Position numbers and translations under genes: made by a program. 64,000 nucleotides of DNA, taken from the NCBI RefSeq assembly GCF_033100135.1, contig NZ_CP136920.1:1550001-1614000 (forward strand). The letters are read 5' to 3'. The notes beneath the pieces are model-generated. The model was not told the DNA's origin. It did no database searches and was given only the letters and a program-made list of their open reading frames with translations. The stretch is from Rubellicoccus peritrichatus. GTDB taxonomy: Bacteria; Verrucomicrobiota; Verrucomicrobiia; Opitutales; Cerasicoccaceae. Position 1 is the stretch's first letter. Each line of letters begins with the position of its first letter. This document shows, piece by piece, positions 42,038 to 60,214 of the stretch.

Positions 42038-43420
42038 ATGAAAAAGCTATTCTTTTGGATTACATTTTGCGCCGCTGCGGTTGCTTCGGCTCAGACATTT
42101 GATCAGGCCTCACAGAAGGTTCAGCAGGATCTCGCTGATTCCCTCAAGCAGCTGTCTGCCACGCGCAACGAGATTGCCAAGGAGCAGATTACGCTCTCGC
42201 GTGATGTCAATAAGCTCGAAGGTGAGGTTATTGAGAAGACCCGCGAGCTTGAGCGCTTACAGCGCCAGGCAGACAATCGCATGGTTGGAGTCAATGCGCT
42301 GAAAGCCGAAGTTAAGTCCCGCCGAGACGAAGTGGAGTATATCTCCGGGCTTCTCAACGAGTTTGTTCGCACATTTGACACCAAGATCCACATTTCCGAA
42401 ACCCAGCTCTATGCCGATGCTCTCAAGGAAGCCCGTCTTTCGATTGATGACATCAACATGACTCAGCCTGAGAAGTTTGATCGTCAGATGGATATCGTGG
42501 GTATTGCGGTGAATCGTGCCGATGAGGTGCTCGGTGGTAAGACCTACGAAGGTAAAGCTTTGACCAACGCAGGTGTGCTTGAGCCGGGTCAGTTCGCAGC
42601 TATCGGCCCTGTCGTGTTCTTTAAGAGTCAACAGAGCGATGCGGTTGGTTTGAGCTTTGGCCAGGGTAATGGGCTTGATGCTGTTGTCGTCGAGCTGGAC
42701 CCAATCCACTCACCTGGAATTACAGGTCTAGTTACTACAGGTGCCGGTGTTTTTCCAGCTGACGCAAGCTCCGGTAAGGCTCTGAAATTTGCTCAGATGG
42801 AGGAAAGCGTTGGTGAGCACATTGCCAAGGGTGGTATCTGGGGCATGGTCATCATTATTCTGGGTATTGTCGCTCTGATTCTTGCAGCCTTCAAAGTGCT
42901 CGATATCGCGGCGGTTAAGGTTCCACCAGTGGATACGCTGGAAGGTATGCTTTATGACATTGACGCTGAGAAATTTGACGAAGCTAAAGCCAAGGCTGAC
43001 GGGCTTTCCGGTCTGACTGGAAAAATCTACCAGGATGCTGTTAAGAACATCAATCAGCGCCGCTCCGTTCTTGAGGAAATCATTTTTGCACGTCTTCTCG
43101 AAATTCGTCCGAAGCTGGAGCGTTACCTTGCCTTTGTTGCCCTGGTGGCAGCAGCAGCACCACTCCTCGGACTACTCGGAACCGTTACTGGTATGATCAA
43201 GACCTTTAACTTGATCACAATCTTCGGAACGGGTGATGCGAAGAGTCTTTCCAGTGGTATTTCGGAAGCGCTGGTCACGACCGAGCTTGGTCTTGCCGTC
43301 GCAATTCCAGCTCTACTGCTCCATGGCTTGCTCAACCGCATGGCCAAACGCAAAATCGCCGACCTTGAACAGGGCGCTGTTTCATTCCTTAACGGTCTCG
43401 AAGTGCAGAAAGAATCATGA
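42038..43420 (+). CDS. TtpC-like MotA/TolQ/ExbB protein, operon 2
   Basis: 460 residues. Signal peptide, coiled coil (about 25-115), periplasmic region, then membrane segments and the ExbB core VALVAAAAPLLGLLGTVTG, MIKTFNLITIFGTGDAKSLS and GISEALVTTELGLAVAIPAL. Ortholog-like pattern to the 12550 protein, with the middle region most divergent. The stop overlaps exbB by ATGA. Confidence 0.9.
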   Translation: MKKLFFWITFCAAAVASAQTFDQASQKVQQDLADSLKQLSATRNEIAKEQITLSRDVNKLEGEVIEKTRELERLQRQADNRMVGVNALKAEVKSRRDEVEYISGLLNEFVRTFDTKIHISETQLYADALKEARLSIDDINMTQPEKFDRQMDIVGIAVNRADEVLGGKTYEGKALTNAGVLEPGQFAAIGPVVFFKSQQSDAVGLSFGQGNGLDAVVVELDPIHSPGITGLVTTGAGVFPADASSGKALKFAQMEESVGEHIAKGGIWGMVIIILGIVALILAAFKVLDIAAVKVPPVDTLEGMLYDIDAEKFDEAKAKADGLSGLTGKIYQDAVKNINQRRSVLEEIIFARLLEIRPKLERYLAFVALVAAAAPLLGLLGTVTGMIKTFNLITIFGTGDAKSLSSGISEALVTTELGLAVAIPALLLHGLLNRMAKRKIADLEQGAVSFLNGLEVQKES

Positions 43421-44013
43421 ACAATCAGACTTTCTGGGAGTTTTCAGCAGATATTCTGCAGAGCGGCGGATTGCTAATGATCCCGCTCTATTTCCTGGCT
43501 GCACTGGTATTTGCCAATTGTCTTCAGCTTTACTTTTACATGAGTAAGCAGAATCTGCCCAAAGCAAGCGGAGAGGAACTCACAAAGTATATTCGTGAAC
43601 CTGAGAAAGCGCCTTACACTTATTCCAAGATTCTGCGTTATGTGACAGATTCGGATTGGACAGAGGACATTATTAATACGCGTTTTAATGAGGTGCATCT
43701 GGCGGTGCTCTCGATCGTGGATCGCCGGATTCGTTACCTTCAGACTCTCGTTGCCTCGGCTCCTTTAATGGGGTTGCTTGGAACGGTTATCGGGATGCTT
43801 GCCACATTTGTTGGCCTCGCAAACAGCGGAGGAGAGACCGTTGATGTGGTTGCGGGTGGTATTAAGGAAGCCCTCATTACAACTCAGACCGGTCTGATGA
43901 TTGCGCTTCCCGGACTTTTTGTCGTGCTGATCGTTCAGCGTCGCAAACACAAACTCGAAGCCGCAATGGCAAAGCTTCGCAGTATGACTTTAGCCACTTT
44001 AACCACGCAATGA
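43417..44013 (+). CDS. exbB: ExbB proton channel, operon 2
   Basis: 198 residues, three transmembrane segments. [20 protein letters not shown] and [19 protein letters not shown] mark the pore. It overlaps the TtpC-like gene by 4 bp and is 1 bp from exbD. Paralogue of the gene at 13996 with the same domain boundaries. Confidence 0.92.
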
Positions 44014-44014
44014 T

Positions 44015-44416
44015 ATGATTCGCCGTAGTGTTTCTTCAGATGATAGCGATCAGGTAGACATTAATTTGTCTCCCATGATCGACTGTGTGTTCATTCTGCT
44101 CATCTTCTTCATCGTCACCACGGTGTTCGTTGAAGAAACTGGTGTTGAGGTCAACAAGCCCGATGCCGCCGCTTCAATTCCTCTGGAAAAGAACAGTATT
44201 CTCATCGCAATTACCGGTGATGGCCAAGTGATTTACGGTGGACGCGATATTGGTGTTCAGGGAGTTGGTCCTGTCGTAAAACGTCTGACGCAGCAGGATG
44301 ATATGCCTGTCATTATCCAGGCAGATGAAGGTGCGAATCATGGCACTTTTGCCCGTGTCTATGGTGAAGCCAAACTGGCTGGAGCCAAGCAAATCAACTT
44401 TTCGACTCTCCGTTAA
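44015..44416 (+). CDS. exbD: ExbD/TolR protein, operon 2
   Basis: 133 residues, the same length as the operon 1 copy. Transmembrane helix with the proton-carrying Asp in [34 protein letters not shown] and a C-terminal [12 protein letters not shown]. It ends TAATG, overlapping tonB. Confidence 0.92.
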
Positions 44417-45102
44417 TGTCCAATCCTGAATCAGAGATCCCACACAGAGTCTTCGAAGCGGACAAGTCCCGCGTTGGAGTCTTCGGCTGGCCGATTGGGT
44501 TGGTTGGTGCTGCGGGGGTTATGTTGCTGATTCCGATCAGTCAGTATCTGACTGCGGAGCGACCTGCACCGATGGAGATTGAGGCTGTCGAAATCGCCAT
44601 GCCACCACCACCTCCGCCAGTTGAGCATGAGCCACCTCCGCCTGAGCCTGAGGAACAGCAAGAGCCACCCGAGCTCGATATGCCTCCACCACAGCTCAGT
44701 CTTGAGCAGCTTGATCTGGCCCTCAATCCAGGAACGGGTGGTAACCTCACCGGTGAATTTGGATTGGGTAACTTTGAAGCCAATCAGGACACACTAGGCG
44801 GAATTGATACTTTTGAAATCGATGATCTGGATTCAAAGCCAGGTGTTCGCAGTAAGGTGCAACCTAAAATTTCGCGTGCCATCGTCAAAGCGAACAAGGG
44901 CAAGACCCTGTTGACCCGTATCAAATTTGATCTGAATGAAAAAGGGCAGCCAACGAACCCGAATGTTGTCATGACGACAATTCCCGGAACGGAAGATTCC
45001 ATCACGAAGATGATCGTGAAGTGGCGCTTCGATCCGCCTATGAAGGATGGTCAGGCGGTTAAGGCCAAAAACTACATTCTCCCATTTAAACTGCAGTTAT
45101 AA
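44416..45102 (+). CDS. tonB: TonB energy transducer, operon 2
   Basis: 228 residues. Membrane anchor (about 22-42), a strongly Pro-rich spacer (about 57-92, PPPPPP and EPPPPEPEE stretches) and a C-terminal domain with GKTLLTRIKFDLNEKGQP and KNYILPFKLQL. The spacer is longer and more Pro-rich than in copy 1, implying a different periplasmic reach. A receptor gene follows in the same direction, which makes this copy the better candidate for uptake by that receptor. Confidence 0.88.
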   Translation: MSNPESEIPHRVFEADKSRVGVFGWPIGLVGAAGVMLLIPISQYLTAERPAPMEIEAVEIAMPPPPPPVEHEPPPPEPEEQQEPPELDMPPPQLSLEQLDLALNPGTGGNLTGEFGLGNFEANQDTLGGIDTFEIDDLDSKPGVRSKVQPKISRAIVKANKGKTLLTRIKFDLNEKGQPTNPNVVMTTIPGTEDSITKMIVKWRFDPPMKDGQAVKAKNYILPFKLQL

Positions 45103-45109
45103 TTTTACC

Positions 45110-46486
45110 ATGAAGAAAACAAAACTTCTTCCAGTCGCCGTGCTCGCTTCATTGCTGAGTGCTTTTATTCCTGTCTCTCAGGCGCAGATGGACCCGACTC
45201 AGACGCGTTCATTCTGGGATGACCCTGATTTTAAAAATCGTTTCATGGGTACCTATGGGCAGCTCTCCGATGTAGAGCCCAAGGTAAGTCGTGAAGAAGG
45301 TGCATTCCTGCAAAGCGTAGTGCCGGTTATTCGCGACAACCCTCGTCAGGCGATTACAGAACTGCAAAACGCCAACAGCGACGGCGCGACGGCGGTTTAC
45401 GATTTTGCCATCGGTAATATCTACTTCCAGGAAGGGGATCTGAACAACGCCCGCACAAATTATCTTGCCGCTGTAAAGAAGCATCCGGACTTCCGTCGTG
45501 TTCACAAGAATCTTGGCCTGCTGGAAGTTCGCGAAGGTAACCTTGATGCGGCAATCAAGCATCTTTCCAAATCGGCAGAACTTGGTGACATGGATTCCCG
45601 GACTTTTGGTTTGTTGGGTTATGCATACCTGCAACAAGGCAAATTCGTTCCATCAGAAAGTGCTTACCGTCAGGCTGTTTTGCAGGACCCTGACAAGCTG
45701 GACTGGAAACTTGGTATCGCTCAAACGCTCATTACTCAGGAGCGTTACGACGAAGCAATTGCACTCTTTTCCCAGTTGATCGAAGCCAATCCCGATCGTT
45801 CCGATTTCTGGCTTCTCCAGACCAACGCTTACCTCGGCAGCAATCAGCCTCTCAAAGCGGCCGAGAATCTTGAGTTGGTTCGCCGACTTGGCAGTCTGGA
45901 CTCAGCGAGTTTCGTTCTCCTTGGTGACATTTACCTCAATCAGCAAATGCCCGACCTTGCCTTGAATGCTTATCAGGAAGTTATTTCACGTGAGGACAAG
46001 CCGGACATCAAAGCTCCGCTTCGTTCAGCATCCATTTTGGCACAGATCAATGCATTTGATGAATCTCAAAAGCTTATTGATACCATTCAGACGAATTACA
46101 CAAGTGAGTTGACCAAACCTGATCGTTTGAAGCTTCTCAATCTTGAAGCCAAGATTGCCAAGCAACAGAATAAGGTGGACCGCTCTGCTGAGATTCTGGA
46201 AGAGATCATCGAAGAAGATCCATTGAATGGTGAAGCATTGATTCAGCTCGCAGAATACCATGTTGATAAGGATGAAGTGGAAAAGGCTCAGTTCATTTTC
46301 GAGCGAGCCCAGAATATCGAAGGTTTCGAAGCACAAGCTTTACTCAGTCATGCGCAGCTTATGGTCAAAAACTCAGACTACGTTGAAGCTGTGAATTTGT
46401 TGAATCGGTCGTTGGCCATTAAACCCTCCAAAGCGGTGGAAGATTACCGTGATCGTGTTGAGCGTGCTGCACGCTCACTGCGTTAA
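45110..46486 (+). CDS. TPR-repeat protein, TonB operon 2
   Basis: 458 residues from ATG 45110, 7 bp after tonB; the longer frame begins inside tonB. Signal peptide (about 1-25), the conserved SFWDDPDFKNRFMGTYG block shared with the 15685 protein, then about ten TPR units (NIYFQEGDLNNARTNYLAAV, GLLGYAYLQQGKFVPSESAY). Periplasmic scaffold of the TonB system. Confidence 0.88.
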   Translation: MKKTKLLPVAVLASLLSAFIPVSQAQMDPTQTRSFWDDPDFKNRFMGTYGQLSDVEPKVSREEGAFLQSVVPVIRDNPRQAITELQNANSDGATAVYDFAIGNIYFQEGDLNNARTNYLAAVKKHPDFRRVHKNLGLLEVREGNLDAAIKHLSKSAELGDMDSRTFGLLGYAYLQQGKFVPSESAYRQAVLQDPDKLDWKLGIAQTLITQERYDEAIALFSQLIEANPDRSDFWLLQTNAYLGSNQPLKAAENLELVRRLGSLDSASFVLLGDIYLNQQMPDLALNAYQEVISREDKPDIKAPLRSASILAQINAFDESQKLIDTIQTNYTSELTKPDRLKLLNLEAKIAKQQNKVDRSAEILEEIIEEDPLNGEALIQLAEYHVDKDEVEKAQFIFERAQNIEGFEAQALLSHAQLMVKNSDYVEAVNLLNRSLAIKPSKAVEDYRDRVERAARSLR

Positions 46487-46515
46487 GTTGGACCGAATGA
46501 GCTGAATTTTAAAAA

Positions 46516-46547
46516 GAAGACGACTCTGTTGCCGCAGAGTCGTCTTC
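46516..46547. terminator. perfect 13-bp hairpin between TonB operon 2 and receptor gene
   Basis: GAAGACGACTCTG (46516-46528), loop TTGCCG, CAGAGTCGTCTTC (46535-46547). It follows the TPR stop by 29 bp. T-run is weak on the plus strand (ATT) but strong on the minus strand, so it could be a partial terminator or mRNA-stabilising hairpin. The remaining 270 bp to 46817 contain only GTTACG-type motifs near 46715-46738 and no gene. Confidence 0.65.
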
Positions 46548-46816
46548 ATTGAAGAGCTTCTTCAAATACCGGAAACCAAATCCTATCAGTTAAGCCGGAA
46601 TGCATAATGTCACGATTCTGTTACAGGAATGCAAGCCCGAAAATAACACCTAACTTCATCCATAAATCCAATAAGCAAAAGCCTTTACGAAGAACCGAGA
46701 CTGTCATTGCGATATGTAACGCTTCAATGGTGTTACGACTGTGCCATTTTTGTCACATTGTAAAATCCCGGTCACGCTCAGTAAAAGCCGTTGCTTAGTC
46801 TGAAATAAATTCTGTT

Positions 46817-49591
46817 ATGCGCCTATCTATAGGTTTGAGGAACCCATCCATGTTAATGTCAAAAGTCACAAGATCCGGATCTGTTCGGGCATTTTCCCTT
46901 TTAGGGGCTGCACTCTTGTTGGGTGCCAGCGCGAAGGCAGAAGTTGCCGGTGTGATCTATGACGGTGAGACTGCTTTGGAGATTCCAGAGGCGTCGGTCT
47001 TTATTAAAGATACTGAATTGTCGACTCAGTCGACTGAAGAGGGTCGCTTCATCATAGAAGATGTACCACCCGGCACTTATGCCATTTCTTTTTCAAAACC
47101 AGGATTTCAGCGTGTGACGGTAACAGATATTGTGGTGCCTTCAGATGCGGCTTCCAACATTCAGGTTATCCTGAATCCCGATTACGGTGCTGCAACTGAG
47201 TTGGATGAAGTCACCATGACTCTATCTCAACTGGAGAGTGCCACTGCCATGCTTCTGGCGGATCGCCAGACGGCATCATCATTGATGGATTCGATTGGCA
47301 GTGATGATTTTTCCCGTCTTGGCATTGGTGACGCAGCAGACGCACTTTCCAAAGTAACGGGTGCGACCATTGTTGGAGGCAGTTATGTTTACATTCGAGG
47401 TCTTGGTGACCGTTATGGAAACACGACCTTGAATGACATTATCATTCCCAGCCCGGATCCGGATGTTAACTCCGTTCCACTCGACCTGTTCCCATCCGGA
47501 TCCATTGAAAGCATCGAAACCTTCAAGACATTCACACCAGACAAACCCGCTGACTTTACCGGCGGACTGGTCAACATTGCGACGAAGGGTATTCCGGAAG
47601 AGACCATTCTCGATGTTGGCATATCGATGAATTACAATACGCAGGCAACGGGTAACTCCAATTTCCTTACCTTCCCTGGTGGCGGTGATTTTGTTTGGGC
47701 GGGCTATACCGACAGTAGCTTCGACCAGCCAGATCTTTCAGGAACAACCACTGGGCAGGAAAGAGCATCTGAGTTCAGTGGAGCAATCTTCCCGACGACC
47801 AAATCGCCTTTGCCTGATATGGGTATTAAAGCGACATACGGAGACTCATGGGAAATCGGCAACACTCCGCTTGGTTTGATCACTTCGATTGACTTCGATC
47901 ACGAATACGACTTTTTCGCTAATGGCACACAACAGCGTATCAACCCAACGCCTGGTCGTATCAATCCTGTCACTACGAATTTGAGTGATTCCGTTGGCAC
48001 AGAAACATCGACTCTGGGCGGATTGATTGGCACTGCGATTCAACCAACACCGGATGATGCATTTGGGATTACCTTCCTTTATAACCACAGTGGTGAAAAG
48101 GAAGCTGAGTTGCTTGAAGGTTTCCAGGAAGATGCCAGCACGGAATTCGGGACAAACGATCCATTCCGTAGTTCCGCTCTACGCTGGATCGAGCGTCAAC
48201 TCTGGGTTGCTCAAGTGGATGGCGACCACACTTTCACTCGCTTCTTGGATACTGAATTCCACTGGTATGCTCAGTATGGTGAAGCAGATCAGGATGAGCC
48301 GGATAATCGCTTTTATCAGGACATCTTTGACGTCGATTCCGGTCGTTTCAGAACTTCAAATGCAATCGATCCTCCAGAGCGTCGCTGGCGTCAGGTAAAC
48401 GAAAACCGCCGTGACCTTGGTAGTGACTTTACGATTCCATTTGATGTTGGGGTGCCTGATGACACTGCTGAGTTTAAGAGCGGATTCTTGGTCAACTCAA
48501 CTCGCCGTGAAACCACTCAGGAGGTTTATAGCTACACTTTTATTCAAGCCTCTGAGGACCCGAATAACACAATCAGAAACCCGCTAACGAGTATTTCTTT
48601 ACCATCTGATAGCAGCTTCCAAGGCAAACGCAGTATCTGGGCTGGATATGCGATGTTTGATATACCGATTAATGACAAAATTCGCTTTATCTTTGGTGGC
48701 CGTGTAGAAGACACCAACATTAACGTCGACGCTGTTTTGGGAACTGGTCCGGTTAATTCCAATTTACAGGAGACTGATTTCCTTCCTGCGGTTAATGCGA
48801 TTTGGAGTGTGACAGACACAATGAATGTTCGTGCTGCTGCAACCAAAACTATCGCACGTCCAACTTTCCGTGAGTTGTCTCCAATCCAGACTCTGGACTT
48901 CCTTGGTGGTGATGTGATTGAGGGTAATCCCAATCTCCAGATTACTTCCGCTGAAAACTATGACTTGCGTTGGGAATGGTTCCCTGGAGAAACCGAAGTC
49001 TTTGCGGCCAGTATTTTTTATAAGCGCCTCAAAAATCCGATTGAAGCAACTGTATCGAACGCGGGCGGTGCGCGCTTTGTAAATACCTGGTTGAACTTTC
49101 CGAAAGGTGAGCTGTATGGCTTTGAGATCGAGGCAGATCAGAATCTGGCCATCATCGATCCTGCATTGGATAGCCTGACCGTTGGTTTTAATTACGCTTA
49201 TGTTCAATCCAGTGTTGATGCCATTCCCGGAGTGACCTCTAGCGGAACCCGCCCACTTGAAGGCCAGTCTGAAAACGTAGTCAATTTGGATGTGACGTTT
49301 GCACCAGCGGATATCGGTCTGTCCATGACATTGGCTTACAATTATTTCTCCCGCCGCCTAACTCAGGTCGGTCAAGGCAGTATTCCTGACATTTACGAAG
49401 AGCCAGTTTCCACGCTTGATTTTTTCATTACTCAGCGCTTTGGCGATGATGACGAATGGGCGGTTACGCTTTCATTCAAGAACATCCTCAATCCAGTGAT
49501 TGAGCGCACTTACGATGGCACGGATTTCACCTACAGCTCCTATAAGAAAGGACGCGATATTGGAATCAGTGCATCTTACTCGTTCTATTAA
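46817..49591 (+). CDS. TonB-dependent receptor with N-terminal carboxypeptidase-regulatory domain
   Basis: 924 residues. Signal peptide (about 15-42), then a CarboxypepD_reg-like beta domain (about 44-135, VAGVIYDGETALEIPEASVF and VPPGTYAISFSKPGF). A TonB-box-like LDEVTMTLS precedes the plug domain (DALSKVTGATIVGGSYVYIRG, about 175-260), followed by a long 22-strand-type barrel ending YKKGRDIGISASYSFY with a terminal aromatic residue. It imports a ligand across the outer membrane using TonB. The DUF/regulatory front end is as in SusC-like and oligosaccharide or siderophore receptors, but no SusD-like gene is adjacent. Substrate unknown. Confidence 0.92.
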   Translation: MRLSIGLRNPSMLMSKVTRSGSVRAFSLLGAALLLGASAKAEVAGVIYDGETALEIPEASVFIKDTELSTQSTEEGRFIIEDVPPGTYAISFSKPGFQRVTVTDIVVPSDAASNIQVILNPDYGAATELDEVTMTLSQLESATAMLLADRQTASSLMDSIGSDDFSRLGIGDAADALSKVTGATIVGGSYVYIRGLGDRYGNTTLNDIIIPSPDPDVNSVPLDLFPSGSIESIETFKTFTPDKPADFTGGLVNIATKGIPEETILDVGISMNYNTQATGNSNFLTFPGGGDFVWAGYTDSSFDQPDLSGTTTGQERASEFSGAIFPTTKSPLPDMGIKATYGDSWEIGNTPLGLITSIDFDHEYDFFANGTQQRINPTPGRINPVTTNLSDSVGTETSTLGGLIGTAIQPTPDDAFGITFLYNHSGEKEAELLEGFQEDASTEFGTNDPFRSSALRWIERQLWVAQVDGDHTFTRFLDTEFHWYAQYGEADQDEPDNRFYQDIFDVDSGRFRTSNAIDPPERRWRQVNENRRDLGSDFTIPFDVGVPDDTAEFKSGFLVNSTRRETTQEVYSYTFIQASEDPNNTIRNPLTSISLPSDSSFQGKRSIWAGYAMFDIPINDKIRFIFGGRVEDTNINVDAVLGTGPVNSNLQETDFLPAVNAIWSVTDTMNVRAAATKTIARPTFRELSPIQTLDFLGGDVIEGNPNLQITSAENYDLRWEWFPGETEVFAASIFYKRLKNPIEATVSNAGGARFVNTWLNFPKGELYGFEIEADQNLAIIDPALDSLTVGFNYAYVQSSVDAIPGVTSSGTRPLEGQSENVVNLDVTFAPADIGLSMTLAYNYFSRRLTQVGQGSIPDIYEEPVSTLDFFITQRFGDDDEWAVTLSFKNILNPVIERTYDGTDFTYSSYKKGRDIGISASYSFY

Positions 49592-49625
49592 ACTTTTCTT
49601 CAAATCCGAATAAAACCAAATCCAA

Positions 49626-51476
49626 ATGAATAAGATAAAAACCTCGATGCTGGTAGCTGCCGGTCTGCTTCCCCTTGCCGGGGCGTTTGCAGAGCGCATT
49701 ACCTATTCTCCGAATGACGGTGACATTCACCTGATTTCGTCCGACCAGACTTGGTCAGCCAGTGATACACACATTCTTGACGGCTTTGTTGTCGTTCCTG
49801 ATGGTGTCACGCTGACGATCGAAGCTGGTGCTGTCGTACTTGGTGACACAGACACAGTCAATGGTGTCGTCGTCACTCGTGAAGCTGAAAACGGTGTTGC
49901 TCTGATCGTTGCCCAAGGTGGTCAATTGATTGCTAACGGCACCGCTGCCAGCCCAATCACTTTCTCATATGTAGGTGATCCTAACGTAGACCCAGACGCA
50001 ACTGGTTCTTCTTCTGCAAATCCGATTCTTGATCGTGGTTTCTGGGGCGGTATTATCCTGCTTGGTAAGGCAACGATCAATTCTAACGGCCAGGATGGCG
50101 ACCAGGGTGGTCCAACTTCAGTTGGTCTGATCGAAGGTGTGCCTGATGTTGTTCCTACTATCTACCGCACATACGGTGGTGGTGAAAGCGACACTGACAG
50201 CTCTGGTTCATTACGTTACGTTTCCATCCGTCACACGGGTGCCATCCTTGGTGCTGGTGATGAAATCCAGGGTCTGACCTGTGGTGGTGTTGGTAGCGGA
50301 ACCGTGCTTGAGTTCATCGAAACCTTTGCGTCCAATGACGATGGTGTTGAGTTCTTCGGTGGCACGGTTAATATTAAGTACCTCGTTGTTGCTGGTAAGC
50401 GTGACGACGGTCTTGACACTGACCAGGGCTACAACGGCTACATGCAGTTCGTCCTCGTTTATGACGTTGTCAGCCCTGAAGGCGAAGTTGGCCGCGGTGG
50501 TGAGCACGACGGTGGTGACGGCGCAGAAGCTGCTTCTCCTTTCTCACTTCCAATGATTGCTAACGCAACCATGATCGGTATCGGTGGTGATGTTAATGCT
50601 GACACACTAACTAACGACGAAAACGATGGTGTTCGTATCCGTGATAACTCAGGTGTTTCTTACTTGAACTCTATCTTCACCGAATACAATGGAACTGCTT
50701 TCCGTTACGACGAAGACGGTAACTTCAATGAAGACTCACGCGCCCGTCTCGAAGCCGGTGACTCAGAGCCTTCAAGCAACTATGTTGTTGGTGCTACCTT
50801 CGGTGATGTTATCCGTAATGGTGGTGTCGATGCTGATTCACTCGTCCTTGCTGATGGTGATGACTATGCTGAATTCATCTTCACAGATGCCAGCCTGAAC
50901 AATGTTATCGGTGACAAGACGCTTCAGGGTATCAGCCGTACACCAAATGGTGGTCTGATTCCTGTTCTCGACGATGCAAGTGGTTCTATTGCAACACCAA
51001 CACCAGCAACACTTGGTGGTAGCTTCTTCACCAATGTTGACTTCATCGGTGCCTTCGATCCATCTGCCACTGGTCTTTGGACTGATGGTTGGACCGCTCT
51101 GTCTCAGCTCGGTTACACACCAGCAGCAGATACAGACACCTACCTTGATGATGGTCGTACTTCCCTCGGGAACTCCTTCTACATCACTGCAATTGGTGGA
51201 GTGTTCATTACTCCAGCAACGCACCCTTGGTACTACCACGCTCAGTTCGGATGGCTTTACACCGGTATTGACGGTAACTCCAATGCTGCTGGTTGGTACT
51301 ATGCATTCAACCCAGCGATCGGTGACTTTGTATTTATCGGTGAAGCCACATGGCCGTTTTCTTACTTCAACAGCGAATCCGCTTGGTTGTTTGCTGATGA
51401 GCAGAATCTGATCTCAGGTGCAAATGGAGCATTCTTCTTCCGCACTGATGGGACTTTCATTAACGTGCAGCAATAA
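49626..51476 (+). CDS. large secreted beta-helix-like protein with aromatic C-terminal tail
   Basis: 616 residues. Signal peptide (about 1-22), then repeats rich in Gly/Asp/Val. SDQTWSASDTHILDGFVVVP, GVTLTIEAGAVVLGD, GFWGGIILLGKATINSNG and GVEFFGGTVNIKYLVVAGKR suggest a right-handed beta-helix. The last about 85 residues are dense in Trp/Tyr/Phe (HPWYYHAQFGWLYTG, GWYYAF, ATWPFSYF, AWLF). Frequent GGT and GAC-type codons suggest strong expression. It lies 34 bp after the receptor and ends at a strong terminator, so it is probably a surface ligand-capture protein for that receptor (inference). Confidence 0.78.
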   Translation: MNKIKTSMLVAAGLLPLAGAFAERITYSPNDGDIHLISSDQTWSASDTHILDGFVVVPDGVTLTIEAGAVVLGDTDTVNGVVVTREAENGVALIVAQGGQLIANGTAASPITFSYVGDPNVDPDATGSSSANPILDRGFWGGIILLGKATINSNGQDGDQGGPTSVGLIEGVPDVVPTIYRTYGGGESDTDSSGSLRYVSIRHTGAILGAGDEIQGLTCGGVGSGTVLEFIETFASNDDGVEFFGGTVNIKYLVVAGKRDDGLDTDQGYNGYMQFVLVYDVVSPEGEVGRGGEHDGGDGAEAASPFSLPMIANATMIGIGGDVNADTLTNDENDGVRIRDNSGVSYLNSIFTEYNGTAFRYDEDGNFNEDSRARLEAGDSEPSSNYVVGATFGDVIRNGGVDADSLVLADGDDYAEFIFTDASLNNVIGDKTLQGISRTPNGGLIPVLDDASGSIATPTPATLGGSFFTNVDFIGAFDPSATGLWTDGWTALSQLGYTPAADTDTYLDDGRTSLGNSFYITAIGGVFITPATHPWYYHAQFGWLYTGIDGNSNAAGWYYAFNPAIGDFVFIGEATWPFSYFNSESAWLFADEQNLISGANGAFFFRTDGTFINVQQ

Positions 51477-51623: not shown

Positions 51624-52394
51624 TCAATCTACATGAATGATCATGAGATTCTTTTCCTGCATCTCTTCTTCGACGAGTGAGCGACCTTCCGGTTTGTTTG
51701 TGATCAGACGGTCTATGGGGTTGAGTCCGCAGACACGGCACATGGCTCGCTTTCCAATTTTATTTTGATCTGCAAGGATGACACTGCGGTCGGCTCTTTC
51801 GATCATTTTACGTTCTGTTTCAACGATGGCTTCGGAGGTGTTGTAAAGACCGTCTGCCGTGATGCCGCCGACTGATAGAAACGCCCAGTCCGCGTGGTAA
51901 AAGTCCAGTGTATGGACTGTTCCGGGACCAGCCAGCATGTTGGAGCCATGCTGGATTTTACCGCCCGTCAAGTAGACTTCCCATTCGGGGAATTGATTGG
52001 AGGCGTCATCAAGGTAAGCCGAGAGTCGGAGTGAGTTGGTGATGATTCTCAGTGGGATTTGCGGCAGATGAAAACAGATATGATTTGTCGTCGTACCTCC
52101 ATCGATAAAAATGACATCACCGGACTGGAGGAGGCTAGCTGCTTTCCGGGCTATGCTGGATTTGGCTTTTGATTGCTGAACAGCACGCAGGTCAAACGAA
52201 ACATTTCCATCTTTGCGCCGCACACGTATGCCGCCGCGGATTCGTTCAACAGCGCCTGCGTCTTCCAATTCCTGAAAGTCGCGGCGGATGGTTGGGAGGC
52301 TTGCGCCAGTCGCTTCGACCGCTCTTTTTAGGAAAATCGTCCCGCGTTCTCCTGCAAGATGCAGGATTCGCTCATGTCGTTCAGTCTTCTCCAT
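51624..52394 (-). CDS. DeoR-family transcriptional regulator
   Basis: 256 residues. N-terminal HTH (ERHERILHLAGERGTIFLKR, TLPTIRRDFQELEDAG, about 1-58) and a DeoR sensor domain with VIFIDGGTTTNHICFHLP and a late VILADQNKIGKRA, the sugar-phosphate isomerase-like fold that binds phosphorylated sugars. Divergent from the sugar operon at 52507, which it most likely represses. Confidence 0.93.
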   Translation of the reverse strand: MEKTERHERILHLAGERGTIFLKRAVEATGASLPTIRRDFQELEDAGAVERIRGGIRVRRKDGNVSFDLRAVQQSKAKSSIARKAASLLQSGDVIFIDGGTTTNHICFHLPQIPLRIITNSLRLSAYLDDASNQFPEWEVYLTGGKIQHGSNMLAGPGTVHTLDFYHADWAFLSVGGITADGLYNTSEAIVETERKMIERADRSVILADQNKIGKRAMCRVCGLNPIDRLITNKPEGRSLVEEEMQEKNLMIIHVD

Positions 52395-52436
52395 CAGCTA
52401 TTTATGACTTTTTTGATCAGTATGGATCTTGATTGT

Positions 52437-52455
52437 GATCATAAATCGATCATAA
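52437..52455. promoter_or_regulatory. candidate DeoR operator, phased direct repeats
   Basis: GATCATAA at 52437-52444 and again at 52448-52455, an 11-bp phase, with TTGATCAG at 52413 and CAATCATG near 52456 as weaker relatives. All lie in the 112-bp gap between the divergent regulator and the operon start. Direct-repeat operators are usual for DeoR proteins. Inference from position and phase. Confidence 0.5.
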
Positions 52456-52506
52456 GCAATCATGAATGAGTCGTGTGCTTCCTGATGCTCTGGTTGGAAT
52501 GGAGGT

Positions 52507-54180
52507 ATGGAATTCAAATTAGGCATCAAGTCCGACCCGATAGAATACCGTAACACCTTTACCTGGTTATTCCGGCTGATGGCCGAGGAGGGCGTCACTT
52601 CGCTGCAACTTGGATCTTTCTTTGAAATGTATCAACTGCCTGATGCCTACTTCATTCGTTTGAAGAAGGAAGCGGATGATTTTGGTATCACCATCGACAG
52701 TCTTTTCACGGCGCATCGAGAGCTTGGCGGATTTTTTCGAGAGGATCCGGAATGGGCTCAAGTTGCACGTCGTAACTATGAGCGTTTCATCGAGATTGGT
52801 GCGCTGGTTGGTGCGAAGTCAGTCGGATCTAATCCTGGCGCAGTTCCACGTGATCGGATGGGCCTGAAGGCAGATGGTTTGCGTTGCTACATGCAGCACA
52901 TGAAAGAACTGATGCATTTTGCAAAAGAGAAAGGAATCGACTGGTTGACGATTGAGCCGATGTCGTGTCTTGCCGAACCACCAACCCTCCCGGATGAAAT
53001 GAAGCTGATGGGGGATGAGCTGACCGAGTATCATCAGGCAAATCCTATGAGCACATCAAATGTGGGTTACTGTACGGATATTGCCCATGGCTATTTGAAT
53101 CAAAATGAGACGGATGGCTTTAACCATGTCGAACTCTTTAAAGCATCTTTGCCCTGGCTCTACGAAATTCACCTTAAGAATACTGACGACAGATTTAACT
53201 CCACCTTCGGCTTCCAGGCTGCCAATGTTCAAAACGGTATCGTGGATGTAGCGCACTTCCGTGATATTCTTTTGGAAAGTACAAAAACGATTCCAGTTGA
53301 TACACTGGGTTGCTACCTTGAGATCGGTGGCCCCAAGCTCGGGCGTGATTATTCGGATGGACAGCTCGACGCGCAATTGCGTGAGTCGTTGACATATTTA
53401 AAAGAGAATTTTCTTCAACCCACATCCCTCTCTGAGAAACCTACTGCACCTGTACCAGAATTTTTTAGTGATACTACTGGCAGGGTTGCGATTGCGCCGT
53501 CGATGATGTGTGTTGATCCGCTTAACTTTGAAACAGCTCTACGTCGTGTTGAAGCGTTGGGTGCGGACATGCTTCACATGGATGTGATGGATGGTCACTT
53601 TGTGCCCAATGCACCAATGGGGCTCGCTGTGATTGAATCCCTGAAAGATCGTACGCATTTGCCAATCGATGTCCACCTGATGGTTGAGAATAACGACTTC
53701 TTTGTCAGCCTGATGGAAGGGTGGGGCGTGCATCAAATCTCCGTTCATACCGAAGCCTGTTCGCACTTGGATCGCACTCTGGCCCGAATTCGGGAGATCG
53801 GAGCCAAGGCAGGAGCGGCGCTTAATCCATCAACCCCATTGAGCACGCTCGATTTTATTCTGGAGCGGATTGACTACGTTCTCCTGATGACGGTGAACCC
53901 GGGCTTTGCCGGGCAAAAGATGACGCCTGCATCGCTTAAGAAAATCGCCGACTGTCATGCATATCTGGAGGCGCGTGGTTATGGTCATCTTCCGATTCAG
54001 GTAGATGGCAATGTTAGCTTTGAAAACATCCCGGCAATGGTGGCTGCCGGAGCTGATAACCTGGTTGCCGGCACAAGCAGCATTTTCAACTCGGCGGATT
54101 CATGGCCGAACAACATCAAGCGTACGCGCGATGCAATAGCCGCAGGTTTACGGGAACGAACAGCCACGAGTGTCGCTTGA
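52507..54180 (+). CDS. fusion: sugar isomerase TIM barrel + pentulose-phosphate 3-epimerase
   Basis: 557 residues. Residues about 1-300 are an AP-endonuclease-2/xylose-isomerase-like barrel (GALVGAKSVGSNPGA, GIDWLTIEPMSC, NVGYCTDIAHGYLN, WLYEIHLKNTDDRF). Residues 327-550 are a complete ribulose- or allulose-phosphate 3-epimerase: IAPSMMCVD, LHMDVMDGHFVPN (His357, Asp359), DVHLMV (His390), MTVNPGFAGQKM and QVDGN (Asp500), so all metal ligands are kept. The IAPSMMCVD start is closer to AlsE than to Rpe. A GGAGG lies only 1 bp before the ATG, unusually close. Leads the DeoR-regulated operon; probably performs two consecutive isomerisation/epimerisation steps. Confidence 0.9.
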   Translation: MEFKLGIKSDPIEYRNTFTWLFRLMAEEGVTSLQLGSFFEMYQLPDAYFIRLKKEADDFGITIDSLFTAHRELGGFFREDPEWAQVARRNYERFIEIGALVGAKSVGSNPGAVPRDRMGLKADGLRCYMQHMKELMHFAKEKGIDWLTIEPMSCLAEPPTLPDEMKLMGDELTEYHQANPMSTSNVGYCTDIAHGYLNQNETDGFNHVELFKASLPWLYEIHLKNTDDRFNSTFGFQAANVQNGIVDVAHFRDILLESTKTIPVDTLGCYLEIGGPKLGRDYSDGQLDAQLRESLTYLKENFLQPTSLSEKPTAPVPEFFSDTTGRVAIAPSMMCVDPLNFETALRRVEALGADMLHMDVMDGHFVPNAPMGLAVIESLKDRTHLPIDVHLMVENNDFFVSLMEGWGVHQISVHTEACSHLDRTLARIREIGAKAGAALNPSTPLSTLDFILERIDYVLLMTVNPGFAGQKMTPASLKKIADCHAYLEARGYGHLPIQVDGNVSFENIPAMVAAGADNLVAGTSSIFNSADSWPNNIKRTRDAIAAGLRERTATSVA

Positions 54181-54205
54181 CTCATAATATTTGAAGCTAT
54201 TATCG

Positions 54206-55315
54206 ATGGAGAATCTTGTTTATTACCTGGATCAACCGGGAGGTGTTTTTACACCTAAAACAGAAATTATACCTGAGCCGGGCTTTGGTGAGGTGCGTAT
54301 TCGTGTGCGTCGAACGTCTGTTTGTCAGTCTGATGTTGTTATCTACAAGGTCGGCTTGCCTCGGATTAAAGAATGGCCTGCGATTTTACTGCATGAGGTC
54401 AGTGCGGAAATCGAAGCGGTGGGTGAAGGTGTGACGAAGTTTGAGGTTGGCGACCTGGTTGGCATTGGCTGTGATATCCCTTGCGGCGATCGAGGCTGTA
54501 TTTACTGTGGTGATCATGGCACGGGAGACTGGACCAGTTGCCCAAACACTCAGGCGACTGGACATGAGTTTCCCGGGTTTGCACGTTCCCATGCAGTCCT
54601 TCCGGATTGGTTTGTTGAGCTTGGTCCGATTGTGAAATTTCCCAAAGACTTTAGTCCTGATCATGCCTGCCAGCTGGAACCGCTTGCATGTTGTCTTGAA
54701 GGGATGACACGCGTTAACAACTGCATTGAAAACCGTGTTGTGGTATTGATTGGCGCAGGATCACAAAGCACCTATGCGCTGCAATGTGCTCAAGCCATGG
54801 GAGCACGGAAAATCATTATGATCAACCGTGGGGAAGAACGTCTGAACCGGGTAATAAAAGATTTCGGTGGGGACAATGTGGTCGGGCTTCACTGGGATGA
54901 CAATGTAGTGGAACGCGTTTTTGCAGAATGCAGACCTTTCAACGAACCACATTTTGTCATGGTCAATACTCCGGCTTTACCAGGTTACGAATTGGCGGTT
55001 CAATTAATGGGTTATAATACAGTGCTCGATGGGCATGCCGGGGTTAAGGGCGCAGGAGGGAAGCCCTGCATTGCTCACGAAGTGGACCTGAACAACGACA
55101 TTCATTACAAGCTTCAATGCTATCAGGCGACACATGGTTCCAATATGCACGGTATCGGTTTGGCCCATGATCTTTTAGCGAACGGAAAGCTCACTCTGAT
55201 TGATAGGATGACCAATGCAACCGAGCGCTTTGACCATACACAAATCATGCAGGCGATCACACGGGCGGCGGACAAGGACAGCCTCAAAGTAATCATAGAT
55301 TGGGATAACATATAA
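54206..55315 (+). CDS. MDR zinc-dependent dehydrogenase, sorbose-phosphate reductase-like
   Basis: 369 residues from ATG 54206; a TTG five codons upstream is possible. Catalytic zinc Cys40 and Asp43 (TSVCQSD), His63-Glu64 (LLHEVS), and a cysteine-rich loop with Cys89, 93, 98, 101 and 112 that could hold the structural zinc. Cofactor motif VLIGAGSQSTYALQCAQAMG has Ser-Gln in place of the usual Ile-Gly. It belongs with polyol or sugar-phosphate dehydrogenases. Substrate unknown; 25 bp after the fusion gene. Confidence 0.86.
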   Translation: MENLVYYLDQPGGVFTPKTEIIPEPGFGEVRIRVRRTSVCQSDVVIYKVGLPRIKEWPAILLHEVSAEIEAVGEGVTKFEVGDLVGIGCDIPCGDRGCIYCGDHGTGDWTSCPNTQATGHEFPGFARSHAVLPDWFVELGPIVKFPKDFSPDHACQLEPLACCLEGMTRVNNCIENRVVVLIGAGSQSTYALQCAQAMGARKIIMINRGEERLNRVIKDFGGDNVVGLHWDDNVVERVFAECRPFNEPHFVMVNTPALPGYELAVQLMGYNTVLDGHAGVKGAGGKPCIAHEVDLNNDIHYKLQCYQATHGSNMHGIGLAHDLLANGKLTLIDRMTNATERFDHTQIMQAITRAADKDSLKVIIDWDNI

Positions 55316-55316
55316 A

Positions 55317-56369
55317 ATGAAAGCTCTTGTTCTCGAAGCTGACAAGCAACTGAAATACGTAGAGGATCGCCCCATCCCCGATGCACCGGATGAACGTCCG
55401 ACCGCACTCGTTCGCGTTGCTGCTTGTGGTATCTGTGGTTCTGATATTCCGCGTGGATTTGGTGGCAAGGCTTACTTCTACCCATTGGTGATGGGACATG
55501 AGTTCAGTGGAGTAGTCGAAGAGCCCGTCGAGGGCGGACGATTTCAAAAAGGTGATCGGGTCGCGGTGTTTCCATTGATTCCGAAAAACCTTGATAGCGA
55601 TCCGGCCAACCAAACTGGCAACTATGCTCAGTCCCGTGAATATGATTATTATGGATCACGGCGTGATGGTGCCTTTGCCGAGTATCTGCGTATTCCGGAG
55701 TGGAATCTTTTTCCGGTGCCGGATCATGTCGATCTGTTGCATGCATCAATGACGGAACCTGCTGCCGTAGCCTTGCATGGCGTGCGAAAAATGAATGTGC
55801 AGGCTGGTTCTGATGCCGCTGTTTTTGGTGCCGGGCCGATTGGTAACATGACGGCTCAATGGCTACGCATTCATGGATGTGCGCGAGTATTCATTGTTGA
55901 TGTTGAACCGCATAAATTGCACCTCGCAGAAGCAATGGGTTTTGTGCCAATCAATGCGCAAGAAGGTGATCCGGTTGAAGCTGTCTTGCAGGCAACGAAT
56001 GGAGTCGGAGTGCAGCACAGTGTCGAAGCCTGTGGTTTGCCAGCGACTTTTTTGCACGCTGTTCAGGTTGCCAGTATGTTTGCTGATGTTGTTTTTATGG
56101 GAAACATTAATGGTGAGTTCAGAATCGGGGAAAAAGACTTTTCCAACATTCTTCGCAAGGAACTAACCATTCACGGAACCTGGAATAGCAAGGTAACTCC
56201 CGTTGGGACGGATGACTGGACAACGGTCCTGAAGCATTTGGATCAGGAGCTGATCGTGGCTCCACTGATCACGGATAAGCTTCCCTTGTCAGAAGGTCCT
56301 GCGATCTTCGATGATTTGTTTAATCGGAAGAATTATCATAACAAAGTGATTTTTGATCTTAACGCTTAG
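55317..56369 (+). CDS. GatD-like polyol-phosphate dehydrogenase lacking structural-zinc cysteines
   Basis: 350 residues. Catalytic site: Cys40, Asp43 (CGICGSDIP), His61-Glu62 (MGHEFSG), with [13 protein letters not shown] for NAD. The region [15 protein letters not shown] and [14 protein letters not shown] are typical of galactitol-1-phosphate 5-dehydrogenase. The structural-zinc loop (residues 85-115) has no cysteine at all, where GatD has four. 1 bp after the preceding gene; its stop overlaps a GTG of the next frame. Confidence 0.87.
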
Positions 56370-56380
56370 TGTCTTTATTT

Positions 56381-57643
56381 ATGGAAAAAAACTCAGGCTA
56401 TTCTGTAGCGCAGGAACTATTCGCTCAGGTTGGCGTCGATACCGAGGCAGCTCTTATGGCGCTCGACGCAATTCCAGTTTCAATGCATTGCTGGCAGGGT
56501 GATGATGTTGCGGGCTTTGAGGCACCGGAAAAAGCAGGAGCAGGCAATGGCTGTGTCGCAACGGGCAATTATCCGGGTAAGGCAAGCAATCCTGCCGAGT
56601 TAATGAGTGACATTGAACAAGCGGCTGCTCAAATCCCAGGCCCGCTTCGGCTCAATCTTCACGCCAGCTATGCGACCGATGGATCTCCTTTGCCAGAGCG
56701 CGATGAGCTGACCGCAGACCACTTTCGTTCGTGGATCGATTGGGCCAAGGCGCAGAGCTTTGGTATTGATTTCAATCCAACCAGCTTCAGCCACCCCAAG
56801 GCATCCGATGGCTTCACCCTCAGTCACCAGGATGCAGCGATTCGTCAGTTTTGGATCGATCACTGTGTTGCTTGTCGCAAGATTGGTGCAGCCATTGGTG
56901 AGGAGTTGAGCAGTCCGGTCGTCAATAACATCTGGATTCCCGATGGCTATAAGGACACCCCCGCTGACCGCTTTGCTCCGCGTGAGCGTTTGTTGGAATC
57001 ACTGGATGTCATCCTTGCGGCCGATGTTTCCAAAAAATGGAATATCGACGCGGTAGAGAGTAAGTTGTTTGGCATCGGAGTGGAAAGCTACACGGTTGGC
57101 TCCAGTGAATTCTATCTCGCCTACGCTGCCACGCGAAAGGTGGCACTCTGCCTCGACGCAGGTCATTTTCATCCCACCGAGTCTGTCGCTGATAAGATTT
57201 CAGCTGCTCTGCTTTACGTGCCTGCGCTGTTGCTTCACGTCAGTCGTGGTGTGCGTTGGGATAGCGACCACGTCATCACATTGGACGATCCGACTAAGGC
57301 AATTCTCGAAGAGTGCGTGGTCAGTGGCCAGATGGACCGCATTCATGTCGGCCTGGACTTCTTTGATGCTTCGATCAACCGCATTGCCGCCTGGGTTATC
57401 GGGACGCGTAACGCGAAGAAAGGCTTGTTGAGAGGCTTGCTTCGGCCCACTGAAAAACTCCGCCAAGTCGAGTTAGCCGGCGACTACACTAGCCGTCTTG
57501 CTTTGATGGAGGATGTCCGTTCTTTGCCATGGGGTGCTGTTTGGAATGAATACTGCGAACGTTGCAACACGCCACCTGACCATCAGTGGCTAGGCACCGT
57601 CAAAGCTTATGAGGCCGATGTGCTGAGCCAGCGTGCATGCTAG
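56381..57643 (+). CDS. rhaA: L-rhamnose isomerase
   Basis: 420 residues from ATG 56381 (a GTG four codons earlier overlaps the previous stop). The sequence follows RhaA throughout: [13 protein letters not shown] (31-43), [58 protein letters not shown] (257-267), [33 protein letters not shown]. It converts L-rhamnose to L-rhamnulose, and RhaA enzymes also accept rare aldoses. No rhamnulose kinase (RhaB) or aldolase (RhaD) is present nearby. The TAG stop lies within the left inverted repeat of the candidate miniature element. Confidence 0.96.
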
Positions 57644-58666: not shown

Positions 58667-60214
58667 ATGTCAGACACTGCACGCCACCCATTCCTTGAAG
58701 GTTTGAGCAAGCATCGTGGGGCTCCTCCCACGGTCATCGTCATTTTTGGCGCATCTGGAGACCTTACGTCCCGTAAGCTGGTTCCGGCCCTTTACAATCT
58801 GGGGCTCGACAGTTTGCTCCCAAGCGAGTTTCATTTGCTTGGTTACGGCCGAAAGCCGATCCCCGACGAAGAGTTTCAGGCCAATTGCGAACGGGATCTG
58901 GAGAAGTTCTCCCGTCGTCCGCTCAACAAGGATATCTGGGGACACGTGAAACCAAATGTGGGCTACCATGCCGGTGGTTATGACGACCCCAAGGCTTTTA
59001 CCGAGCTCAAGGAACGGATGCTCAAGATTGAGAAGGAAGCCGGCCGCGATCTGCAGTTTCTCTTTTATATTTCCACACCACCAAGTGTCTTTAAGCCTAT
59101 CCTGGAAAATCTCGGTTCCAGCGGTCTGGCCAGACATCATGACGGGACGGATCTGGCTTCAAAGGTGATTATTGAAAAGCCTTTTGGTCGGGATCTCGAT
59201 ACGGCCAAGGAGCTGAACCGGATTATCACCGATCAATTCCACGAACATCAGGTTTATCGGATCGATCATTATCTGGGTAAGGAAACGGTTCAGGATCTTC
59301 TCGTACTTCGTTTTGCCAACAGCATTTTCGAGCCGCTTTGGAATCGTAACTATGTTGATTGTGTCCAGATCACGGTGGCGGAGAGTCTGGGAGTCGGCAC
59401 ACGTGGCGGCTACTATGACCAAAGTGGGGCGACGCGTGACATGTTGCAGAATCATACGATGCAGCTTCTGGCCCTCACTGCGATGGAGGCTCCGGTTTCA
59501 CTTGGCGCCGAGGCCATTCGTGATGAAAAGGTGAAACTGCTCAAAGCGATCCAGCCATTGCGTCTTGAAGGCGAAAACTGCGATGCAGTTCGTGCCCAGT
59601 ATGGCGAAGGGCTCATCGATGGTGTTCGTGCTCCGGGTTATATGCAAGAGCAGGATATCCCTCAGGATTCGAGTACTGAGACCTATGGCGCGTTGCGTTT
59701 TTCCATTGATAACTGGCGCTGGCAGGGGGTTCCTTTCTACCTTCGTAGTGGTAAGCGACTGGCACGTCGTGTTTCAGAAATCGCGATTCGTTTCAAGCAG
59801 CCTCCTGGTATTCTTTTCTCAGATCCGACTCGTTTCGACTTGGCGAACAACACACTGGTGATTCAGATCCAGCCGGACGAAGGCACGACCTTGCTCATGA
59901 ATTCCAAGATTCCTGGTCTGGAAACACGGACTCAGGCGGTCAAGATGCACTTCCGTTATGCGACGACTTTTGGCTCGAATACACCTGAGGCTTATGAGCG
60001 CCTGATCCTCGACTGCATGATTGGTGACTCGACGCTTTTCATCCGTGGTGATGAGACAGAGACTTCGTGGGGGCTTTACACGCCGTTGCTGGAATCCTGG
60101 CAGGAGCTTGGGCGCAAGGGGCTTCAGTCTTATCCATGTGGTTCCTGGGGGCCACTTGCAGCGGACAAGCTCTTGTGGCAGTCCAATCACGAATGGCGTC
60201 GGGCCGGTCCATAA
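58667..60214 (+). CDS. zwf: glucose-6-phosphate 1-dehydrogenase
   Basis: 515 residues, typical length. NADP motif FGASGDLTSRKLVPALYNL (28-46), EKPFGRDL (170-177), the active-site RIDHYLGKE (198-206) and a full C-terminal domain with VPFYLRSGKRLARR. It feeds the oxidative pentose phosphate route. 5 bp after yraN; no gnd or pgl nearby. Confidence 0.96.
   Translation: MSDTARHPFLEGLSKHRGAPPTVIVIFGASGDLTSRKLVPALYNLGLDSLLPSEFHLLGYGRKPIPDEEFQANCERDLEKFSRRPLNKDIWGHVKPNVGYHAGGYDDPKAFTELKERMLKIEKEAGRDLQFLFYISTPPSVFKPILENLGSSGLARHHDGTDLASKVIIEKPFGRDLDTAKELNRIITDQFHEHQVYRIDHYLGKETVQDLLVLRFANSIFEPLWNRNYVDCVQITVAESLGVGTRGGYYDQSGATRDMLQNHTMQLLALTAMEAPVSLGAEAIRDEKVKLLKAIQPLRLEGENCDAVRAQYGEGLIDGVRAPGYMQEQDIPQDSSTETYGALRFSIDNWRWQGVPFYLRSGKRLARRVSEIAIRFKQPPGILFSDPTRFDLANNTLVIQIQPDEGTTLLMNSKIPGLETRTQAVKMHFRYATTFGSNTPEAYERLILDCMIGDSTLFIRGDETETSWGLYTPLLESWQELGRKGLQSYPCGSWGPLAADKLLWQSNHEWRRAGP

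Follow-up and report, generated by a model that had tools for sequence, protein, structure and literature searches.

A recurrent fusion of two sugar-epimerase-like barrels in Rubellicoccus peritrichatus and in bacteria of several phyla

Rubellicoccus peritrichatus encodes a protein in which two sugar-enzyme barrels of known families, both probably metal-dependent, are joined in one chain, and the same fusion recurs in bacteria of several phyla. The window analysed here is a stretch of 64,000 nucleotides, positions 1550001-1614000 of the one-contig 5.8 Mb genome, in which the fusion gene lies at 52507-54180 on the forward strand as a single 557-residue open reading frame whose translation has no internal stops. 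We give about an even chance to the reading that this is a bifunctional ketose enzyme whose halves both serve a single route for a rare sugar or polyol, the C half working on a hexulose 6-phosphate.

The N half (residues 1-306; 52507-53424) is a xylose-isomerase-like barrel with a fold like those of EryC, UlaE and D-tagatose 3-epimerase, and it matches AP_endonuc_2 (PF01261) over residues 23-259 with 49.4 bits against a cut-off of 31.1. The C half (residues 327-548; 53485-54150) is an Rpe/AlsE-type 3-epimerase that matches Ribul_P_3_epim (PF00834) over residues 329-524 with 212.5 bits against a cut-off of 21.1. An AF2 model made from 16 aligned fused proteins contains two barrels, with structural matches covering residues 2-306 and 326-548, joined by a variable and poorly predicted linker (residues 307-326; 53425-53484; pLDDT below 50 at residues 305-324); the mean pLDDT is 78.9 and the pTM of 0.54 leaves the relative placement of the barrels uncertain. 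Every one of the 16 fused proteins aligned, this one included, has the C-half residues His357, Asp359, His390 and Asp500, and Glu150, Asp191, His194, His222 and Glu272 of the N half are invariant in all 27 N rows aligned, as are Arg71, Arg115, Lys121, Lys224, Lys277 and Arg280. This last set of basic residues would suit an anionic substrate. Both halves look active, with the metal and catalytic positions kept, and the original prediction of two intact domains, complete with the four epimerase metal positions, is borne out by the domain scores, the two predicted barrels and the absence of any loss at the conserved positions of either half.

Fused homologues 51-80% identical to the R. peritrichatus protein make up the 15 other aligned rows and come from several phyla. 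The Verrucomicrobiota with the fusion include Cerasicoccus maritimus and Pelagicoccus mobilis, the latter with a version 80% identical in strain KCTC 13126, and further ones come from metagenome-assembled genomes of Planctomycetota, Omnitrophota (three) and Hinthialibacteria. Because the same fusion is present at these levels of identity in several phyla it does not reflect chance, and it is a recurrent arrangement, not a sequencing accident. The distribution is patchy: six genomes carry the fusion among 54 relatives, R. peritrichatus itself being counted, and N is present in 6 of the phylum's 288 genomes, in 13 of 384 genomes of the class (ten strong matches and three that are weak and partial) and in 5 of 20 genomes of the order of G334. 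A search of a plasmid collection with the whole protein matched 574 records, none over more than 80% of the query, and the 20 matches listed involve the C half only.

A more varied picture is seen when all 29 N-bearing loci are compared, each genome being counted once where this could be judged; shorter duplicate loci (L001, L003-L007, L022-L027 and later duplicates) are counted once through the longer locus, and weak partial N matches in genomes G365, G437 and G595 (E 8.4e-5 to 9.2e-4) are left out. N and C are fused in 18 loci. In four others (L038, L039, L126 and L127) they are neighbouring genes on the same strand; L038 and L039 are from Chloroflexota and Caldilineales respectively, and L126 and L127 come from the order searched around the genome of L038. 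A further six (L092, L093 and L121-L124) carry a divergent Rpe-type gene within the same cluster, and in the last, from genome G637, C is missing from the 17 kb read and a different contig has a C-type gene with, after it, what by eye resemble ADH2 and ADH1, the two dehydrogenase genes that follow the fusion gene in R. peritrichatus. The unfused pairs consist of the same two domains accompanied by the same kinds of dehydrogenase, and differ from the fusion in being two genes instead of one.

Neighbours were tallied by tblastn (above 60 bits, at most 9 kb from N), and since some contigs stop near the cluster the absences in this tally are unproven. Homologues of both dehydrogenases are present in 22 of the 29 loci and of one only in three (L033, L089 and L095), and no dehydrogenase homologue was found within 9 kb in the remaining four (L034-L036 and L125); the three Omnitrophota loci have the fusion and no dehydrogenase homologue detected nearby. 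DeoR homologues occur in 15 loci, RhaA homologues in ten, RhaM in three (L038, L039 and L127) and a PfkB kinase homologue in two (L030 and L126). The fused, adjacent and same-cluster versions, together with the recurring dehydrogenase neighbours, indicate that N and C serve one pathway.

Several other genes were noted around the unfused clusters. Multiple URO-D-family genes accompany RhaM around the N and C genes of L038, L039 and L127, a metallo-beta-lactamase-fold gene is nearby in L038 and L039, and an iron-type alcohol dehydrogenase in L038 and L127. In genome G201 (L093:3-6769), within a few kb of the cluster, a gene for a B12-binding protein is followed, by eye, by genes for a methyltransferase, a CobW-like GTPase and a corrinoid-activating ferredoxin protein. 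A link of these URO-D-family and corrinoid genes to demethylation of a methylated sugar is possible, and we found no open-licence PMC paper describing demethylation of methylated sugars by such clusters.

The C half also occurs alone. Poribacteria (L040-L072) carry a stand-alone C-type gene, 53-62% identical to the C half and followed by ADH2-like and ADH1-like genes, and the N profile, run against six Poribacteria genomes and the genome of L073, matched nothing in any of the seven. In L041 the C-type gene is preceded by a GFO/IDH/MocA gene, and by eye L042 and L054 share this arrangement but L046 does not; in L041 a phosphoribosyltransferase-family gene comes after the two dehydrogenases. A C-type gene without N in all six genomes implies that C needs no N, and the halves are separable steps of one pathway. 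This bears on the original proposal that the fusion channels its substrate, the product of one barrel being handed directly to the other. The recurrence of the fused form in 18 of 29 N-bearing loci speaks for such an enzyme, whereas the separate genes in the other 11, the Poribacteria genes, the variable linker and the uncertain placement of the domains all speak against it; these unfused versions imply no obligate tunnel, and we regard channelling as very unlikely.

R. peritrichatus has a separate Rpe elsewhere in its genome that is 41% identical to the C half. A tree built from 42 Rpe-family rows places the 20 C-type rows (fused, split, and from Poribacteria and L073) in one group with support of 98/98, apart from the housekeeping Rpe rows; outside this group the divergent L092 and L093 genes pair with each other, and AlsE and SgcE are on long branches, so that no use is made of their placement. 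All 31 C-type sequences read have the motif DGN and, after beta8, a six-letter loop G[ST]S[SA][ILV][FY], whereas Rpe has DGG and a five-letter loop in the 12 rows in which the loop is readable. The corresponding sequences are DGS and GTSGLF in Escherichia coli AlsE (D-allulose-6-phosphate 3-epimerase), and DGN and GTSSIF in the C half. Rpe nonetheless shares with the C half its family, its metal and catalytic residues and its fold, and AlsE too has the Rpe fold (3ct7, Z 28.2), with GFAGQ, DG[S/N] and the six-letter loop common to AlsE and the C half. AlsE differs in being unfused, in having only 33% identity to the C half and in its setting, an allose operon with a kinase and an ABC transporter. 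The earlier assignment of this domain as AlsE/Rpe-type thus agrees with both the PF00834 match and the phosphate-site motifs, which match those of AlsE.

One alternative is that the C half duplicates the ribulose-5-phosphate 3-epimerase activity, so that a pentulose made as its phosphate by a UlaE-like N half would pass from the operon into the pentose phosphate pathway. The C half scores 218.8 bits against the rpe equivalog TIGR01163, above the cut-off of 212.6, and 172.4 bits against the AlsE model NF007266, below its cut-off of 271, and among solved structures Rpe enzymes are its best relatives; the N half resembles UlaE, and UlaR is the second-best NCBIfam match of the neighbouring DeoR regulator, below its cut-off. 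The curated score taken alone would label the C half a housekeeping ribulose-phosphate epimerase, but its clade, motifs and neighbourhood disagree. Because there is a separate Rpe, a distinct clade, and the DGN motif with the longer loop in 31 of 31 sequences, we take the C half to be something other than a housekeeping Rpe, and a role as a second Rpe seems unlikely. Chan and colleagues reportedly showed in 2008 (Biochemistry) that the loop of AlsE, one residue longer, lengthens the active site such that hexulose 6-phosphates are preferred. With its AlsE-like longer beta8 loop, a hexulose 6-phosphate would be the expected substrate for the C half, and a phosphorylated substrate of some kind is plausible.

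The relatives of the N half are more distant. With the N half alone, phmmer matched no PDB chain at E 0.1, and the N profile gives as its best PDB matches 3qxb (E 4.2e-5), which is labelled 'putative xylose isomerase', and 4k3z (E 0.0093). The N domain predicted alone from 18 rows has a pLDDT of 86.6 and a pTM of 0.89, and by way of this model its nearest folds are 3qxb (Z 29.2, rmsd 2.5, 279 residues aligned) tied with 4k3z (Z 28.3, rmsd 2.8, 284 residues aligned). These are followed by Art22 (26.9), then by D-psicose/D-tagatose 3-epimerases and UlaE (23.9-25.1; 3cqi 24.9), with xylose isomerases ranking after those (23.4-23.6); Foldseek places 4k3z first, with E 4.3e-16. Identity to characterised enzymes is 11-20%, such that the likeness is at the level of the fold: UlaE and the D-tagatose/D-allulose 3-epimerases share the barrel class at 11-18% identity. 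Enzymes of the D-tagatose 3-epimerase class have a Glu-Asp-His-Glu metal set with two catalytic Glu residues, and Glu150, Asp191 and His222 of the N half align with 4k3z in the profile alignment (E 0.0093), with Glu272 beyond the part aligned. Fold and residues together say that the N half is probably a metal-dependent ketose epimerase or isomerase, with relatives too distant to name its substrate.

The 4k3z structure comes from Brucella melitensis and bears the deposited name 'D-erythrulose 4-phosphate dehydrogenase'; we take it to be EryC. It is the best Foldseek match of the N half, and its EPMS, D..H and H motifs align, although it is only 19-20% identical and is a single-domain chain of 306 residues. 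Two papers give EryC as a tetrulose-4-phosphate racemase (PMC5992420, PMC11508834), and in the second the eryC operon also has a DeoR-family regulator, EryR (PMC11508834); its other enzymes are not those beside the fusion gene.

In R. peritrichatus the fusion gene is the first of four, the order being fusion, ADH1, ADH2 and RhaA with spacers of 10, 1 and -1 bases. ADH1 (54191-55315, forward) and ADH2 (55317-56369, forward) are zinc-alcohol-dehydrogenase family members, ADH1 matching PF08240 with 62 bits and PF00107 with 21.9 bits, the latter below its cut-off, and ADH2 matching PF08240 and PF00107. The nearest solved relative of ADH2 is galactitol-1-phosphate 5-dehydrogenase (4a2c, E 2e-46), although its score against NF007642, 198.1 bits, is below the cut-off of 550. 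RhaA (56369-57643, forward) belongs to the L-rhamnose isomerase family (PF06134, 628.2 bits) and is above the cut-offs of both TIGR01748 (623.5 versus 584.95 bits) and NF002203 (658.9 versus 572 bits). A DeoR-family regulator is transcribed divergently (51624-52394, reverse; PF00455 145.1 bits, PF08220 44.8 bits). The cluster of a DeoR regulator, two dehydrogenases and RhaA that had been proposed is therefore present by Pfam, whereas calling the dehydrogenases polyol dehydrogenases reflects family resemblance only. No kinase gene was found in the operon.

The region between the regulator and the fusion gene (52395-52506) contains GATCA-like words spaced every 10-11 bases or so and partly kept in five relatives, and these form a possible, weak candidate operator; a promoter scan found five sites compared with a mean of 7.3 in shuffled sequences, and no promoter is claimed. 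Among other features near the clusters, we note that by eye a forward-strand set immediately upstream (43417-51476) encodes ExbB/ExbD/TonB-like proteins, a TPR protein, a TonB-dependent-receptor-like protein (924 aa) and a possibly secreted protein of 616 aa. A glucose-6-phosphate-dehydrogenase-like gene, also recognised by eye, lies at 58667-60214, about 10 kb or less from the cluster, and another is less than about 10 kb from the differently arranged cluster of genome G094 (L092:18568-19998), which may be a coincidence. In Cerasicoccus maritimus the cluster RhaA is in two overlapping frames (L029:11970-13225), a frameshift or an assembly error.

Rhamnose, or a sugar resembling it, is hinted at as the sugar used by the RhaA and RhaM genes, by GH78-family genes near the clusters of L028 and L032, and by sugar ABC transporter genes in L127. 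RhaA enzymes accept other sugars, D-allose included. The R. peritrichatus genome has a second RhaA outside the operon, a RhaB-like kinase scoring below its cut-off, and no RhaD by TIGR02624; microcompartment shell genes are present at about 179-181 kb and a class II aldolase at about 184 kb (G000:C1:179229-184906). Microcompartment-linked use of fucose and rhamnose is described for Verrucomicrobiota (PMC8857213), and this locus is perhaps the usual compartment of that kind. With the second RhaA, the RhaB-like kinase and the microcompartment and aldolase genes, rhamnose use need not depend on this operon alone, and the operon probably either supplements the common route or has another purpose. 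Rhamnose as the sole substrate was rejected in view of the second RhaA, the microcompartment genes and the class II aldolase.

These genes also bear on whether N and C might act on free sugars, that is on the unphosphorylated ketoses of a rhamnose-like route. RhaA would make the ketulose, N and C would change its C3, and the dehydrogenases would reduce or oxidise it. The RhaA (10/29) and RhaM (3/29) neighbours, the GH78 and transporter genes, the operon without a kinase and the D-tagatose 3-epimerase-like fold of N are all consistent with it. However, the C half resembles AlsE and Rpe, both of which act on phosphates, and keeps the glycine-rich motif region; RhaA goes undetected in 19 of 29 loci, and the second RhaA and the microcompartment locus with its aldolase count against it as well. 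We consider the free-sugar scheme rather unlikely.

The scenario to which we give an even chance starts from two neighbouring genes of a catabolic cluster that would have fused to give a bifunctional enzyme, with each half a TIM-barrel enzyme complete in itself, dependent on metal and using a ketose as substrate; its metal use, chemistry, substrates and regulation are what we infer. In the C half, the metal-bound Asp359 and Asp500 would move the C3 proton through an enediolate, and the longer beta8 loop would suit a hexulose 6-phosphate (for example in converting D-allulose 6-phosphate to D-fructose 6-phosphate), not ribulose 5-phosphate. Such a conversion to D-fructose 6-phosphate would lead straight into glycolysis. 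In the N half, the metal-bound Glu150 and Glu272 would epimerise or isomerise another ketose of the route, probably also phosphorylated. The two zinc dehydrogenases would interconvert ketose and polyol and RhaA aldose and ketose, with DeoR controlling the set. The PfkB kinase genes near the clusters of L030 and L126 favour a hexulose 6-phosphate; against it are the scarcity of such genes (2/29), an operon without a kinase, and a C half that passes TIGR01163 and fails NF007266. The three Omnitrophota fusions with no dehydrogenase homologue detected nearby, and the likeness of N to characterised enzymes at fold level only, also count against the scenario.

There is a further tension, in that RhaA (10/29) and RhaM (3/29) point to a 6-deoxy sugar, which could have no 6-phosphate unless its carbon chain were renumbered. 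An undescribed 'flip' of the sugar would provide for this. N would invert C3 of a ketose, one dehydrogenase would reduce the ketose to a polyol, the other would re-oxidise the polyol at its far end and so renumber the chain, and after phosphorylation C would invert the new C3, formerly C4. We think this highly improbable. If true, it would change two neighbouring centres with only 3-epimerases and dehydrogenases, and with entry through RhaA it would convert a 6-deoxy-L-hexose to a 1-deoxy-hexulose 6-phosphate while avoiding lactaldehyde, reconciling the rhamnose signature with the AlsE-like C site.

We found no paper describing the fused two-barrel protein in the open-licence PMC literature, and the expectation that no enzyme of this architecture had been described holds among those papers. 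The fusion is a new architecture of known families, perhaps in a new pathway context, and not a new kind of enzyme. The recurrent set of N, C and two dehydrogenases in several phyla looks like a shared sugar pathway that is undescribed, and its natural fused and split versions provide a ready-made test of what is gained by fusing enzymes.
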